Made by a program: the position numbers and the translations under genes. Below, piece by piece: positions 32,086 to 46,323 of a stretch of DNA of 64,000 nt (within the stretch, counting starts at the first letter, position 1; each line of letters starts with the position of its first letter). Below the pieces are notes generated by a model, which saw only the letters and a list, made by a program, of their open reading frames with translations, made no database searches and was not told the origin of the DNA. Source of the DNA: an uncultured bacterium (GTDB lineage Bacteria; Verrucomicrobiota; Kiritimatiellia; RFP12; UBA1067); NCBI GenBank assembly GCA_902761035.1, contig CACWIW010000002.1:1-64000 (forward strand), read 5' to 3'.

Positions 32086-33336
32086 TCACGGCATCTTACT
32101 TGCGGCGGCGATGGCTATTTTATCGATGTTGGCGGGAGCCAGGCCGCAGTAGTTGATCGTAGCCGCCCCCTCGCCCGCGATCCATTGGCAGAGGCGGTTC
32201 ATGGCCGTGGCCTCATGTCGTGCCATTGGCTTGTGCCCCGGCGTGTAGGGCCAGGCGACCGGCGCGAGCATGAGGAGCCGTCCCGCCGCGCAGGCATCGA
32301 AATAGCGGCCAGTCGGCTTCTCCAGCTTCGAGAAGCCCTTGTTCTGCATGGTTACGAGCGGCAGGCCCTCTGCGAGCGCCTCGCGAGCGATTTCGCGCTC
32401 ACCATCCGAAATGCAGGGCGAAATCAAAACCACGCCGTGCCGCGCGGCGGCGAGCAGCCGGCCGTGCAGCCTTTCGTATTCAGGCGAGGTGAAATCGGCA
32501 ATTGGATTCCAAGCCGAATCGCGTGCGATCTTCATTCCGCCGCCCGGCTTTGGAATCCGCTTGTAGCCGAAGTAGCGCCGCGAGCACTGCACTTGCACCA
32601 TCGGCCGCTCCAGCAGCGCCCGGTTGCCGATGGCGGAAAAGTGGAGGGTGGGGAGTCCTGTGATCGGGAGTCCTGTGATCGCCGATATTATCGGCGATAA
32701 CTGAACTCTCGCCGATAACTGAACTCGAGCTCCCCTCACCACCGTGAATAGCCCCGGCAGGGCGCGCTTTATCGCGAGGCGCAGGGGATTGGCCTTGAGG
32801 TAGGCGATCATCTTTGCCAGCTGCCCTTCGTGAAAAAGGATTGAATCCTGGAAACCCTCGGCGAAAAGCCCCGCACCCTCCGCGAGCAGATTTGGGCATA
32901 GCCGCCTTACCGCGCGGTTGCAGCCGATTTTAAAGCCCTTGATCACCTGCCCGAGGTGGCAGCCCAGCGGTTCCTTCACCCAGATAATGCCGTGGAAATG
33001 ATCGGGCATCACCTGTTTGCAGATGATCTGCACCTGCGGGTAGAACTGCGGTATCGCCTCCCAGCACTCCTCCACCGCCCTTCCCAGCTCGGTCAATTCG
33101 CACCGCGCAGATTTGGGGAGGGGAAGGGGAGTCCTGTTATCGCCGATATTATCGGCGATAACTGAACTCGAACACCCCACCACCTTCCCAAGCACCTTGC
33201 TTCGCCGGTTGGCCAGCACCAAGGTGATCATGTAGATGCACGGCAGGGAATAATCCCAGCCTTCGCACCGGCGAAGCATTCCGTGAATGGTTTCTTTCAG
33301 GTAGCCCTTTCCCTTCTGATCTTCAAGCTCCGTCAT
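32086..33336 (-). CDS. REP-associated tyrosine transposase (Y1/HUH, IS200-like) with C-terminal extension
   Basis: The 416-residue protein starts at ATG 33336 with AGGAG nine bases upstream. The N-terminal Y1 transposase domain shows CIYMITLVLANRRS, IICKQVMPDHFHGIIWVKE (the HUH motif as HFH) and HEGQLAKMIAYLKANPLRLA (the region with the catalytic tyrosine). After about residue 260 lies an extra domain (LHGRLLAAARHGVVLISPCI, EGLPLVTMQNKGFSKL, GRLLMLAPVAW) resembling a DprA/LOG-like Rossmann fold, seen in a subgroup of such proteins. Two copies of a palindrome (hairpin ATCGCCGATATTATCGGCGA) lie inside the gene, read in different frames. RAYT proteins spread REP sequences. Confidence 0.85.
   Translation of the reverse strand: MTELEDQKGKGYLKETIHGMLRRCEGWDYSLPCIYMITLVLANRRSKVLGKVVGCSSSVIADNIGDNRTPLPLPKSARCELTELGRAVEECWEAIPQFYPQVQIICKQVMPDHFHGIIWVKEPLGCHLGQVIKGFKIGCNRAVRRLCPNLLAEGAGLFAEGFQDSILFHEGQLAKMIAYLKANPLRLAIKRALPGLFTVVRGARVQLSARVQLSPIISAITGLPITGLPTLHFSAIGNRALLERPMVQVQCSRRYFGYKRIPKPGGGMKIARDSAWNPIADFTSPEYERLHGRLLAAARHGVVLISPCISDGEREIAREALAEGLPLVTMQNKGFSKLEKPTGRYFDACAAGRLLMLAPVAWPYTPGHKPMARHEATAMNRLCQWIAGEGAATINYCGLAPANIDKIAIAAASKMP
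32651..32735. repeat. REP3 palindrome with partial duplication, inside the transposase gene
   Basis: GGGAGTCCTGTGATC, then the hairpin ATCGCCGATATTATCGGCGA (from 32678), then AACTGAACTC and a second CGCCGATAACTGAACTCGAG. It encodes VQLSPIISAITGLP. Partial duplication of both flanks is visible. The same element occurs at 33126-33172. Confidence 0.9.
33126..33172. repeat. REP3 palindrome, second copy in the transposase gene
   Basis: GGGAGTCCTGTT, the same hairpin (33139-33159), AACTGAACTCGAAC. Here it is read in another frame as SSVIADNIGDNRTP. Both copies keep the transposase frame open. Confidence 0.9.
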
Positions 33337-33370: not shown

Positions 33371-33829
33371 TCACGCGCGAAGCTCCGATAGCATGCCATC
33401 GTTGTAGGCATAGCCCACGCGCGGGACCGTGACGATCCGCGCGCCGTCGACGCCTAGCTTTTCTCGGATATGCCAGATGTGCTGGTCGAGCGTGCGCGTG
33501 TTGCCGTAGTAGTCGATACCCCACAGGCGGCTGAGCAGCATGTCGCGCGCGAGGACCTCGTTTGGATGCTCCGCAAATATCTCCAGCAGCAGCAGCTCGC
33601 GTGGCGAAAGGCGTATGAGCCGATTCCGCTTGCTGATGTAGGCGAATTTCCGCCGGCTCACCTTCCCCTCGCCGAATTGGAATACGTCATCTTGCAGTTC
33701 CTCGCGCCTCGCGTTTTCGCTGAGCGTCGACTCGATCCGCGATAGCCTGCGGCCCAGATCCTCCAACACGTGCAGGAGCGATGCGGGCACCTGTGCACAA
33801 TCCCTCATCTCCGCCGTAGCCTTATACAT
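33371..33829 (-). CDS. OmpR/PhoB-type winged-helix regulator without receiver domain
   Basis: ATG 33829 follows GAGAGGAGGTGGAGC, a very strong site, giving about 152 residues. The C-terminal 100 residues are a winged-helix trans-reg-C domain: IRLSPRELLLLEIFAEHPNE, VLARDMLLSRLWGIDYYGNT, RTLDQHIWHIREKLG, ARIVTVPRVGYAY. The N-terminal part (about 50 residues) is a short helix with no receiver Asp or Lys motifs. So it has DNA-binding but no phosphorylation domain. It is the last gene of the operon with the lipoprotein and sensor-like protein, and the 11-bp repeats upstream of that operon (34860-34903) are the kind of site such proteins bind. Confidence 0.85.
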   Translation of the reverse strand: MYKATAEMRDCAQVPASLLHVLEDLGRRLSRIESTLSENARREELQDDVFQFGEGKVSRRKFAYISKRNRLIRLSPRELLLLEIFAEHPNEVLARDMLLSRLWGIDYYGNTRTLDQHIWHIREKLGVDGARIVTVPRVGYAYNDGMLSELRA

Positions 33830-34472
33830 GCTCCACCTCCTCTCTTTCCACGTTCTGATGCAGCATCTCGACGAGCGCATCCGATTCCTCCCGTGCGTGC
33901 CATGCCGCGCGCCTCAGGTACCAGGCACCGGCTGCGGCCATTGCCATAAGCACGCACAGCAGGCTTGATCCCAACGTCAGCCGCACTACGGGACGTCGTC
34001 GCCCTTCCCCGCCCAAATCAAGCACGAAGCCGCACACATCCCGCTGCCCCATGCGCGACCAGGCGACAGTAGTGCCCGCATCCGTGAAGAACCCGTGTTT
34101 CGGATACTTTACGCGCCTTCCTTCAGTTGTCCATTTGAAACCGCCATCCAATCTGCCTGTAATCATTTGCTCTTCTCCTTTTTTCCAAATAACGCCTTTC
34201 CCCTTGCGCCATACGAAAGCCGACGCAAGACCAGCTTCCCGTTCAAGGTCGCTTGCGAGCGCGTCTACCTGTTCCGGAAGTTCGCGCCCCGCGTCGGCAC
34301 CGTACTGTTTCCACAACGTATCTGCGAGGGCGTTCGCACGTGCGCTGACGCCCTCACGCAAATCGGCCTGTTGACGCGCACATTCCCGGCGGAGGAGGGA
34401 AAATCCCCCCAGCGCCCCAACGAACGCCGGGAGAACCACCGCCAGGAAACCGATCCACAGGTCGCACTTCAT
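33822..34472 (-). CDS. Two-span membrane sensor-like protein without kinase domain
   Basis: The 216-residue protein has an N-terminal span (FLAVVLPAFVGALGGFSLL), a periplasmic region of about 120 residues (coiled part with QADLREGVSARANALADTLW, then strands around GRRVKYPKHGFF and CGFVLDLGG), a second span (LGSSLLCVLMAMAAAGAWYL) and a cytoplasmic tail of only about 30 residues (ESDALVEMLHQNVEREEVEHV). This is the layout of a histidine kinase sensor cut off before the dimerisation and ATP domains. GGAG precedes ATG 34472 and the end overlaps the regulator gene by eight bases. Confidence 0.75.
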   Translation of the reverse strand: MKCDLWIGFLAVVLPAFVGALGGFSLLRRECARQQADLREGVSARANALADTLWKQYGADAGRELPEQVDALASDLEREAGLASAFVWRKGKGVIWKKGEEQMITGRLDGGFKWTTEGRRVKYPKHGFFTDAGTTVAWSRMGQRDVCGFVLDLGGEGRRRPVVRLTLGSSLLCVLMAMAAAGAWYLRRAAWHAREESDALVEMLHQNVEREEVEHV

Positions 34473-34475
34473 GGC

Positions 34476-34778
34476 TTACTCCGCCGAGTCGAGCATGCCT
34501 GTGACGGGAAGCGCGGACATCTGCGTTTTGCGCGTGCGACGACGCCGTGGCTGCTTCTGCTTCTCGCCATCGGGCGCGGCGGCATTGTCTTTCTTCGTGC
34601 GGCGCGTGCGACGCGGCTTGGCCTCATTCTTCTCCAGTGTCGGCACGTCAGCGACGGCGATCTGAGTCGGTGCGGCGGACGCGACGGGGTTCGACTTACA
34701 GACGGCGTCTGACGTACATGCCGTGAAGGCGAAGCTGGCAATGACGGCCAGCGCGATGGTTTTCAGGTTTGCTTTCAT
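34476..34778 (-). CDS. Arg/Lys-rich lipoprotein
   Basis: ATG 34778 (AAGAAAGGAACAGAACC upstream) gives 100 residues with a lipoprotein signal (LAVIASFAFTAC). The mature part has a short Ala/Pro/Val region and two strongly basic stretches (KPRRTRRTKKDN and KQPRRRRTRKTQ), then LPVTGMLDSAE. No known family. As first gene of the sensor/regulator operon it could be the sensed or sensing factor at the envelope. The basic clusters suggest binding to nucleic acid, LPS or peptidoglycan. Confidence 0.7.
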   Translation of the reverse strand: MKANLKTIALAVIASFAFTACTSDAVCKSNPVASAAPTQIAVADVPTLEKNEAKPRRTRRTKKDNAAAPDGEKQKQPRRRRTRKTQMSALPVTGMLDSAE

Positions 34779-34852
34779 GGTTCTGTTCCTTTCTTTTTTT
34801 CCGGTCGGAAACACCTTGTCTCCGTCCGGCGAACAGTAAACCAAAAAACCGC

Positions 34853-34935
34853 GTGATAATCATCACATGGACATCACACAATCATCACATGATCTTCACG
34901 CGCACGTGATGATTATCACATGCATGTGATAATTG
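34853..34935 (-). promoter_or_regulatory. Four 11-bp direct repeats plus inverted half-sites: regulator binding region
   Basis: On the plus strand TCATCACATGG, ACATCACACAA, TCATCACATGA and TCTTCACGCGC follow one another with an exact 11-base period (34860-34903), preceded by GTGATAA and followed by inverted copies (ACGTGATGATT, ATGTGATAATT). Eleven-base direct repeats are the hallmark of OmpR/PhoB-type sites. On the minus strand the repeats end about 12 bases before a possible -10 (TTTACT, 34840-34835), an activator-like position for the lipoprotein operon. Confidence 0.75.
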
Positions 34936-34999: not shown

Positions 35000-35017
35000 G
35001 GCGGCCGACCGCCCTAT
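35000..35017. repeat. Degenerate REP1 copy at the end of the giant gene
   Basis: GGCGGCCGACCGCCCTAT resembles REP1 with its loop shortened. The TAG stop codon of the giant protein (35016-35014) lies at its edge. Confidence 0.5.
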
Positions 35018-38000
35018 TCATTTACGACCCTGTAGAACATGTTTCCGCTGGAAGACGGAATAGGCACGGTGATCGTCACGGAGCCGTCTGGCTCAACGGT
35101 ACGGTTAGCATCCGTCAAGTCAATCCGAGTCCCTCCGTTTTCAGGAACCGGCAACGTCTCCGACGCCCGCACCGTGACCGTCTCGAGGAATCCCGCAAGC
35201 CACGTCTCCGGCTCGGCAGAGACGTTCATGCGGATCACGCCGTCCTCCACGGCGAAACTGTTGATGACAATCCCCGAGCATTCCTTCTTCTCGCTGCTCG
35301 CCACAAGGCCGCCGCCGTCCGCCACCGTGACCGTGCAGCGGTAGCCGTTGGCCATGAAGTCGTAGAGCGCGCTTTCGCCGCCGCTGCCGAGACGCGCGCT
35401 CATCAGCGTCGGCGTGAAATCATGGGTGCCGTCGGGCAGCCACAGGTAGACCATGCCGTGGACGTCCGACCAGATATCATTGGTGCCGTAGTTCTCAAGG
35501 CCGGCAAACTGCACCCTGCGGTTGGCACCACCGACGTTGACCGGCACGTAATTGACGGTTGCGCCCGCTCCGTTGACCGGGACATTTGCGTCGTTCACCT
35601 TGCTTTGCGTGAACTGCTGCTTCCCGGAATGACGCGGGAAAACGCTTCCCCCGGAAATGACGACCGCATAGCCGTTGTCCTGGGAAAACATCGAGAATTC
35701 ACCAAAACCGTCGCCTATGTCTGCGGCAAAATCTTCGCCGGATTGCCCGCCCATGGAGACGACCGTACCACCGGAGATGACGATACTACGGCCCTGCGAC
35801 CTGGAGGAGTCGCCGCCGCCGATGCCGGCGCCAAAGTAGCTTGAGTAAATGATCGATTCTGATGCGTGACTGCCGCCGTATGCGAAAACGCGACCGCCGG
35901 TAATGTAGATGTCGCCACACGTGCCGTTGAAGCCACTGCCGATGCCTGCACCGCTGGCGCCCGTACAGCACATATCGCCGGATGCTTCACCACTGCGCGC
36001 GACGATGGTACCACCCTCAATGCGAATCGTGCCGACAGTCTGGCCCTTGCTCCCGCCGATACCTGCGCTGTCGTTGCCGCCCATCGCCGTTAGTTTCCCG
36101 TTTTCCGCAGCATTGGTGATCGTAAGCGTAGCCCCCCCCGGCACCTGAAGCGCGGTATAGCTGGGCAATACCGCCTTCAGTACGCTCTCATGCTCGCCGA
36201 GGGCAATCGTGGCCGACACTCCGGGGGCCAACGCAAAAGGAGCTTCGTTTGCGCTAAGGTTCAGCCCGTCGAGCGTGACCGGCGCGTCGGTTGCGACTAC
36301 GACCTTGAACCCGGTGCTTGTGTTCGCGCCGGAAAGGGTCGAGCCGACTTGCCCGGAGATTGTGAGGACATTCGGATCTGGCCACCACTCCCAGCCCTCA
36401 CCGCAGCCACGCGCGGCGTCGATGCCATCGACCAACACGCCCGTCGTACGGTAGCTCTCGTATGTTACCGCCTCCGTGACGGCACTGCCCGCGACGTTGG
36501 CGCGCCAGAGCAGGCCGCCCAACCGGACGGCGTTGTCGCCTTCGGGGAGCCAGAGGTATATCTTGCCATCGGCGTCGGCGAAGATGCTTTCCGCGCCGTA
36601 GTTCCAGACGGCGCCGTTCAACTTCAATTCCCCAAGGTCCACGACCGCGTTCGGCGTGAATCCAGAGAACACCACGCACCAGACGCGCTCCGTGGCGTTG
36701 GATGCGGCGGGAGCCACGATACCCTTGTTCGTCGCGTGTACGGAACCGCCAGTGACGAGAACCGCACCCTTCGCACCGGCGTTATAACCCGCGCCGATAT
36801 CGGTGGGGGCATAGTTGCTGTTCTTGTTCGCCGTCGCCACGACGGTGCCGCCGGTGATGCGAACGATGCCGCAACCAGCCTCTAGTCCACCGCCGATCGC
36901 GGCGGCGTATGTTTGCGATGTTGCCGTCACGAAGCCGCCCGAAATGGTGATCTCCCCTACCTCACCGTATTGACCCCCGCCAATACCCGCGCTCCTCTGG
37001 TCGCCGATGGCCGAGACGACACCGCCGGAGATTGCAATCGTCACGGCGTTGCCACAATTGCCTCCGCCGATACCGGCCGACATATAGCCTGCCGTTGCCG
37101 TCACCGTGCCACCGGAAATGACGATCGTGCCGCCGGACGTGCGCGCTTGGTATTCGCCGGCGCCACTGCCGATGCCGGCGCCATTGGAACCGCCGGTGGC
37201 CCTCACTGTTCCGTTGGTAATGGTGGTGGTTCCCCCGTTGCCGTCCTGGCCACCGCCGATGCCCGCAGAGAAATCACCTCCAGTGGCTTTGACGGTACCG
37301 CCATTGATCGTGATGTCGCCCGCGTGTTTCCCGTCGGCACGGGCGCCACCGATGCCGGAGCCACATTTCCCGCCGACCGCTTCAACCGAGCCTTCGCCCA
37401 TGATGGTCACGGCCGCTCTGGCAGGAACCTGCAGCCCGGCGCAGTATTCGCCGCTCTTGAGGGTGTTGGTGCCTGCCAGCGTCAAATCGACCGACATGCC
37501 GGCCATGATGGCGAAGGCCGCGCGTCTTTCGACGCCCGAAGCGTCTAGCATCAGGTTCGTGACCGTCACGGCGCAGTTGGTCTCGGCCAGAATGCCCCTG
37601 CCGCTCGCGGAACCGGCGATCTCGAACGGACCGGCGTCCGTGAGACGGACAATCCCGCCGGAGAATCCCCAGCCTTCGCCATAGCCGTTGCCGATGTCCT
37701 TGCCGTTCACGGTGACTCCCTCCAGGACGGGGGTGAAGGGCGCGGCGTCCATGTCCGCGCCATTCACCGTAGCGACAAGATCCATGTCTTCCTGCCCCTC
37801 CTGCGAAACGAGGAGGCGGTAGTCGCCGTCGGGAAGCCAGACGTAGATTTTGCCCCAGTTATCGGCGATGAGGTCGTTCCCGCCGTAGGCTGCGACGGCG
37901 TATTCCGGTGACAGTCGCACTTCAAGGTTGTCCACCTTGGTGTTGCGTTTAAGTCCAGAAACAGTCACACACCAGACGCGCTCCGTGGCGTTGGATGCGG

Positions 38001-38684
38001 CAGGCGACACTTGATCCGAGGCGGAGTAGACGGATCCGCCGGAAATCGTGACCGAACCCGCACTGGACCGTGTTCCTGAACCGATGCGCACCGGACTGCC
38101 CGTCGGCAGAATGGTGCCGCCGCAAATCGTGACGTTGCTGCAGGAACCAAAACCGCTGGAGCCGACTTCCGCCGGACCTGCATACGGAGAATAAGGACAT
38201 GACACGCGGATGACGCCACCGGAAATCACGATGGTGTCGCCTGTCGCCGTCTGCTCAACCGTCTGGTCGCCAGAGCCGATCGCCGCGCTGTAATCCCCGC
38301 CTGTCGCCGTGACGGAACCCCCGGAAATCACGATGGTGCAGTCCTTTCCTAGGAAACCTCCGCCGATGCCGGCGCCACTGCTGCCGCCTGTTGCCGACAC
38401 CGAGCCGCCGACGATGGACACCGTGCCGACCGCTTCACTTCTGCCTCCGCCAATGCCCGCAGCTTCCTTCCCACCTGTTGCGGACAAGGAGCCATCGCCG
38501 CCGATGGTCACGCTCGTGCCGTTCGTCACGCTCAGTCCTGCGGCTTGTTTGCCGCCCTTCAGAACGTTTTCGCCGACAAGCGTCAATGCCACGGACGCAC
38601 TATCAACGATTGAGAAGCCCGGACGATTGTCGGCAGACGAGTTGTCGAGTGAAAGCGAATCGAGCGTCACTTCGCAGGCATTCG

Positions 38685-38700
<16 letters not shown>
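35014..38700 (-). pseudogene. Downstream fragment of the giant beta-helix surface protein
   Basis: This 1228-codon frame continues the protein that starts at 46295 but is thrown out of frame by a 65-bp tandem duplication (38646-38775). It holds the last modules: repeated ISGGTVTATGG / GAGIGGG units (right-handed beta-helix rungs), module headers VNGKDIGNGYGEGW and VDGIDAARGCGEGW, and a C-terminal domain ending SSSGNMFYRVVNE that probably serves surface attachment or export. Without the duplication both halves fuse into one frame. The opening ATG (38700) is just a codon inside the duplicated stretch and has no plausible start signal, so separate translation is unlikely. Confidence 0.85.
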
Positions 38701-46295
<7,595 letters not shown>

Positions 46296-46323
46296 ATTCA
46301 ATTCGCCTCTAAACCGTGTGGTA

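Follow-up and report, generated by a model that had tools for sequence, protein, structure and literature searches.

A kinase-less sensor, a receiver-less winged helix and a recurring array of direct repeats: a candidate switch without phosphotransfer in a genus of ruminant-gut bacteria

What can a signalling pair still do once both of its phosphorelay modules are missing? The question is raised by a three-gene operon on the minus strand (33371-34778) of the window, by which we mean the whole 64,000-nucleotide stretch of DNA analysed here. Downstream of a repeat array, the operon encodes a basic lipoprotein-like protein of 100 residues (34476-34778), then a sensor of 216 residues without a kinase (33822-34472), and finally an OmpR/PhoB-type winged-helix protein of 152 residues without a receiver (WH; 33371-33829), all on the minus strand. 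The initial annotation had given these coordinates and lengths together with an eight-base overlap of the last two genes, and all were confirmed on the sequence: the ATG of WH lies at 33829 while the stop codon of the sensor ends at 33822, and the same overlap is found in six of six operons. Our reading is that the locus is a reduced relative of the histidine kinase/response regulator (HK/RR) pairs which works free of phosphotransfer, with WH as a self-regulated activator tuned by the tail of the sensor. We give this reading as a whole a probability of about one in two.

The only Pfam domain found in WH is Trans_reg_C (residues 71-141; 75.9 bits against a curated cut-off of 26.2), and neither a receiver domain nor a phospho-accepting Asp was detected by Pfam in its 152 residues, the orthologs being alike in this; the earlier description of a receiver-less OmpR/PhoB-type regulator stands. 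The AF2 model (pLDDT 81) consists of a helix at residues 16-44 and a winged helix at 46-146 and nothing else, and the sequence contains no hydrophobic stretch of membrane-span length. The best structural match of this model is PhoB on pho-box DNA (1gxp, Z 14.7); CadC (5ju7) reaches a Z of 13.8. The N-terminal helix aligns with the ELLARIxAALRR helix of receivers, and the rest matches the DNA-binding part of regulators. Since the aligned region is that of helix 5 and the linker, WH looks like a regulator minus its receiver up to the last helix, and we infer that it was derived from a response regulator by such a removal. In the tree, the WH proteins, including that of genome G002 (genomes are given by our working labels), form one clade on a long stem with a support of 100/99. 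Among 162 genomes of the order that were searched, no further WH of such length matched across the N-terminal helix.

The sensor has undergone a comparable truncation. It ends about 30 residues after its second membrane span, in the H-box region, with no Pfam match to HisKA or HATPase and no SHEL motif, and the same is true of five orthologs; where the kinases read ..ESERKTTFIDNLSHELKVPL.., the sensor reads ..ESDALVEMLHQNVEREEVEHV followed by the stop. Both of the membrane spans ascribed to it earlier, as well as the lack of a kinase, are borne out by the Pfam result and by the two membrane helices of the AF2 model (mean pLDDT 78), in which a helix at residues 2-57 with the first span is followed by a periplasmic alpha/beta domain at about 65-151 and by a helix at 155-215 with the second span and the cytoplasmic tail. 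The periplasmic domain has no match at the sequence level. By VIA-align its model is most like the PAS/Cache sensors KinD (Z 9.4), Tlp3 (8.7) and WalK (8.2), while the best Foldseek hit (E 1.4e-3) is to another fold; we describe the domain as PAS/Cache-like. Homology with the input half of the genus's full histidine kinases (26-30% identity, E down to 8e-18; families A, B and C) extends from end to end of the sensor. The tail is among the best conserved parts, with 17 of the last 24 residues invariant, which suggests a partner, and WH, encoded by the overlapping gene, is the obvious candidate. The sensors too form one clade on a long stem (support 100/100). Neither the sensor tree nor the WH tree gives a supported deeper attachment to HK/RR family A, B or D, both stems being long. 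Within the sensor/WH pair phosphotransfer, which the initial annotation had rejected as the mode of action, is impossible, as neither a phospho-acceptor His or ATPase nor a receiver is present.

It is worth pointing out that the genus also contains a family of kinases, HK-D, of 285-286 residues, which keep the H-box and end before the ATPase domain. These are found in G003, G004 and, in two copies, G005 (L231:1549-2214, L232:3853-4518, L233:1381-2238 and L234:2427-3092). A full response regulator adjoins each, with an 8-bp overlap in three of the four, and RR-D also occurs in G006. HK-D is a possible intermediate stage of the reduction.

The first gene of the operon encodes a protein whose C-terminus, PVTGMLDSAE, is invariant. 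Its earlier label of basic lipoprotein holds for most species, in which the lipobox is good, and fails for G007, where it reads ITVC, so that the name is likely and not uniform. Given its first place in an autoregulated operon, the protein may be an output or an accessory of the sensor. A RAYT-like (transposase-like) gene (32086-33336, minus strand) begins 34 bp past WH and is a possible fourth gene of the transcript in the window for this reason; it is kept in G013 and absent from G011. Inside it lies a palindromic repeat, TTATCGCCGATAATATCGGCGATAA, at 33135-33165, with related copies nearby. At 35014-38700 and 38685-46301 there are two giant, adjacent, repeat-rich open frames, which overlap by 16 bases in different frames and are possibly one frameshift-split gene.

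Is such a locus maintained? With the sensor as query, 144 related genomes yielded full-length copies of the truncated form, 69-88% identical, from five further species of the genus. In all five (G005, G007, G010, G011 and G013) the lipoprotein gene stands ahead of it and WH behind in the identical arrangement, with no stops. By the Nei-Gojobori method, dN/dS ranges over 0.20-0.27 in the sensor gene, 0.10-0.38 in WH and 0.32-0.48 in the lipoprotein gene. With such low ratios and a shared trio, the truncated forms are evidently maintained. A full kinase and receiver at this locus in relatives, which the initial annotation had named as the mark of mere decay, was found in none of the five, whose orthologous operons are all equally truncated; the full homologs lie elsewhere. 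The genomes with the operon are metagenome-assembled genomes (MAGs) from the rumen and other ruminant guts, assembled in several projects and labelled Kiritimatiellae or Lentisphaerae. One further genome, G002, has WH directly behind a diverged array of its own, in which GTGA occurs four times at 11-bp intervals, and the leader is similar. Neither lipoprotein nor sensor precedes WH there, and no truncated sensor was found in that genome; WH may thus not strictly need the sensor, and the link between the two is not obligatory.

The proposed operator of WH consists of four direct repeats (CGTGAAG, TGTGATG, TGTGATG and TGTGATG; 34861-34900, minus strand), 7-mers with 4-bp spacers. The period is exactly 11 bp, with GTGA starting at 34899, 34888, 34877 and 34866 on the minus strand, and is kept in six of six operons. 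An inverted half-site, ATTATCACGCGG (34849-34860, minus strand), follows directly after the last repeat and is present at all sites of the TGTGATG word, and a perfect 22-bp palindrome, ATTATCACATG/CATGTGATAAT (34912-34933), marks the upstream end. The repeats and inverted half-sites reported earlier are all there. A -10-like hexamer, TTTACT (34835-34840, minus strand), begins 26 bp after the start of the last repeat, and the leader contains a stem-loop, CCGG-A-CGGAGACA... (34801-34829, minus strand; z -2.8), which is kept in G007 and G002 despite changed bases. The inverted sites TGTGA-N6-TCACG could also be read as CRP-like, and this was considered; OmpR-type binding is the better fit to the four-fold direct period, to the fixed distance from the -10 and to the PhoB-type gene that follows. 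A three-repeat pattern allowing <=2 mismatches matches the window at the operon array alone, with 0.05 matches expected by chance.

The same pattern search, carried out genome-wide, detected arrays in nine of 115 genomes of the family, all of them of this genus, with 0 matches to a reversed control pattern. This control and the count in the window rule out chance repeats. Besides that of the operon, the genome of the window has four further arrays, which precede two four-helix-bundle genes (C114 and C180), a RAYT-like gene (C170), and a gene for a 196-residue protein followed by a YraN/UPF0102 gene (C37). A Whirly-like identity was suspected for the 196-residue protein, for which Pfam and PDB searches gave no support; the leader of its gene has a strong hairpin as well. 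Arrays stand before orthologous and analogous genes in G005, G007, G011 and G013. In G005 there are five array sites, with an ORF6N protein and an ArsR-like regulator as extra targets; the single site of G010 is that of its own operon, and in G002 a second diverged array precedes the 196-residue gene. The -10-like hexamer starts 26 bp past the start of the last GTGA at 26 of 26 aligned sites and also at both G002 sites. Hexamers at this offset have on average 4.7 of 6 matches to TATAAT, and no other offset tested exceeds 2.7. The idea that the arrays are REP-like mobile elements of the RAYT genes was dropped: RAYTs are a minority among the array genes, and the distance to the -10 is fixed. The array appears to define a small regulon, which is the new element here. 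The 'PhoB-like sites' of the initial annotation recur before a defined gene set across the genus.

Arrays and WH go together. Arrays are found in seven of seven genomes with WH and in two of nine without (Fisher p 0.003, a guide only, since the species are related), and in each of the seven an array immediately precedes WH or its operon. The two in which arrays were found without WH are G006, a MAG 74% complete, and G012, which is 89% complete and in which the contig ends just behind the array gene.

In genomes without WH, orthologs of the 196-residue gene have a different repeat, TTGAGACA, at the same place and with an 11-bp period. Arrays of this word are confined to a sister clade, G003, G004, G008 and G014 (L214-L229), where they precede RAYT, ORF6N or RhuM-like, four-helix, 196-residue and DUF2851-like genes (family names partly by eye), and their -10 lies at 26 bp as well (mean 4.1 of 6 matches). 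The two words differ, but the 11-bp and 26-bp spacing is common to both and the genes behind them are comparable, so that geometry and classes of target persist. Directly behind a TTGAGACA array no regulator was seen among the loci examined. At the 196-residue promoter position in G012 and G015 (L178 and L177), a third word, CTTGACAT, occurs twice, about 11 bp apart. Full kinase/regulator pairs of this family adjoin RuvC (G002, G003, G004, G014), the 196-residue/YraN genes (G002, G014) and mfd (G000, G013); the loci are L166:2754-4313, L041, L042 and L043, and this neighbourhood ties them to genes for recombination or repair of DNA.

The conserved trio and the recurring control site point to a working switch without phosphate transfer, and a mechanism can be proposed from the sequences. 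WH, with its N-terminal helix and PhoB-type DNA-binding domain, would probably bind the four 11-bp repeats head to tail. The arrays would be bound by this protein and no other regulator; with the last repeat 26 bp from the start of the -10, it would activate its own operon and about four other promoters per genome. With four repeats beside a -10, cooperativity alone may suffice for binding by a protein that has no receiver. In the sensor, the PAS/Cache-like domain would detect an envelope signal, and the conserved cytoplasmic tail may tune WH, either by keeping it at the membrane or, as the initial annotation had envisaged, by direct contact, probably from helix to helix.

The arrays could instead be bound mainly by RR-B, a full-length regulator encoded beside its own kinase, with the receiver-less WH competing for these sites or sharing them as a partner. 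This is the strongest of the alternatives, though we think it improbable. RR-B (>70% identical) is found in G000, G002, G006, G007, G011 and G013, all of which have arrays, and is nearly confined to such genomes; RR-A and HK-A are full-length relatives of RR-B and HK-B, and RR-A, the sister of RR-B in the tree (97/96), occurs in exactly the four genomes with TTGAGACA arrays, which hold HK-A as well. Furthermore, an array and the 196-residue gene lie directly downstream of RR-B in G002, and the incomplete G006 combines arrays and RR-B. However, WH and arrays occur without RR-B in G010 and in G005 (90% complete; none above 50% identity), every WH genome has an array at the WH promoter, and none was seen directly before the HK-B/RR-B operon; a four-helix gene and mfd separate the two in G000 and G013. 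The recognition helices are also unlike, RTLDQHIGHIREKL in WH and HSIDQAICRLRAKL in RR-B.

Somewhat less probable still is that the sensor acts on the full-length kinases of its own family, for instance as mixed dimers through the tail, and WH acts alone. The input domain and the start of the tail are indeed common to the sensor and HK families A to D, and the lone WH of G002 would fit; however, the sensor and WH genes overlap and always co-occur in six species, and the last residues of the sensor are specific and conserved. Regulated proteolysis, the other link that the initial annotation had put forward, is known from membrane regulators, and cleavage of the sensor or WH would suit a pair from which all phosphorelay parts are gone, but with no protease gene in the operon and no cleavage motif recognised we regard it as quite unlikely. 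That the locus is a decaying two-component system, as the loss of kinase and receiver might suggest, is contradicted by the five orthologous truncated operons with the same gene ends in six species, intact frames under purifying selection, and conserved regulon promoters, and can be set aside as very improbable.

If the phosphotransfer-free reading is true, a system can shed both phosphorelay modules and still keep its input domain, DNA-binding domain and regulon, which would make it a natural minimal version of the two-component kind. Possible intermediates exist within the genus, namely full pairs, a kinase lacking its ATPase domain, and the stripped pair, and these, with two operator words of the same geometry and comparable targets, open the order of loss and the rewiring of the regulon to testing. 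We would suggest, tentatively, that a two-component system became a phosphorylation-free two-protein switch of membrane sensor tail and receiver-less PhoB-type activator, and that in a gene set similar to that of the sister clade the word changed from TTGAGACA to TGTGATG at identical spacing.

How does this operon compare with known systems? Judged by their defining features, it falls outside the two-component systems: HK/RR families A, B and C of the genus keep the H-box, the ATPase domain and the receiver, whereas the stripped pair is without all three, although the HK and RR genes of the full family A pairs overlap too. The sites of OmpR/PhoB regulators are direct repeats of 7 bp separated by 4 bp, to which the proteins bind head to tail; binding can extend to trimers and tetramers, three or four repeats being bound more tightly (PMC4832192). 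E. coli PhoB and M. tuberculosis PhoP are like WH in the DNA-binding fold and, if the arrays are its operator, in such 7 + 4 bp sites; PhoP reads TCACAGC (PMC4832192), and the reverse strand of the array in the window reads CATCACA. Unlike them, WH has about 45 N-terminal residues with one helix in place of a receiver, and so no phosphorylation-driven dimerisation. No direct precedent for receiver-less OmpR proteins paired with truncated kinases was found in the literature searched. The co-component systems VtrA/VtrC and ToxR/ToxS likewise have overlapping genes, a receiver-less OmpR-like winged helix and kinase-free envelope sensing, with the DNA-binding domain fused to a membrane protein and a periplasmic partner (PMC9214523). 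Here, by contrast, the DNA-binding domain belongs to a soluble protein, and a truncated histidine kinase with two spans serves as the membrane sensor; a winged helix and membrane part on one chain with a lipocalin-like partner, by which co-components are defined, are not what this operon has, its sensor being PAS/Cache-like. One-component regulators of the CadC type also combine an OmpR-type winged helix with a periplasmic sensor, in one protein instead of two, and the sensor here is derived from a kinase. By analogy, it is the co-component and CadC/ToxR-type regulators (PMC9214523) that the operon would appear to work most like.
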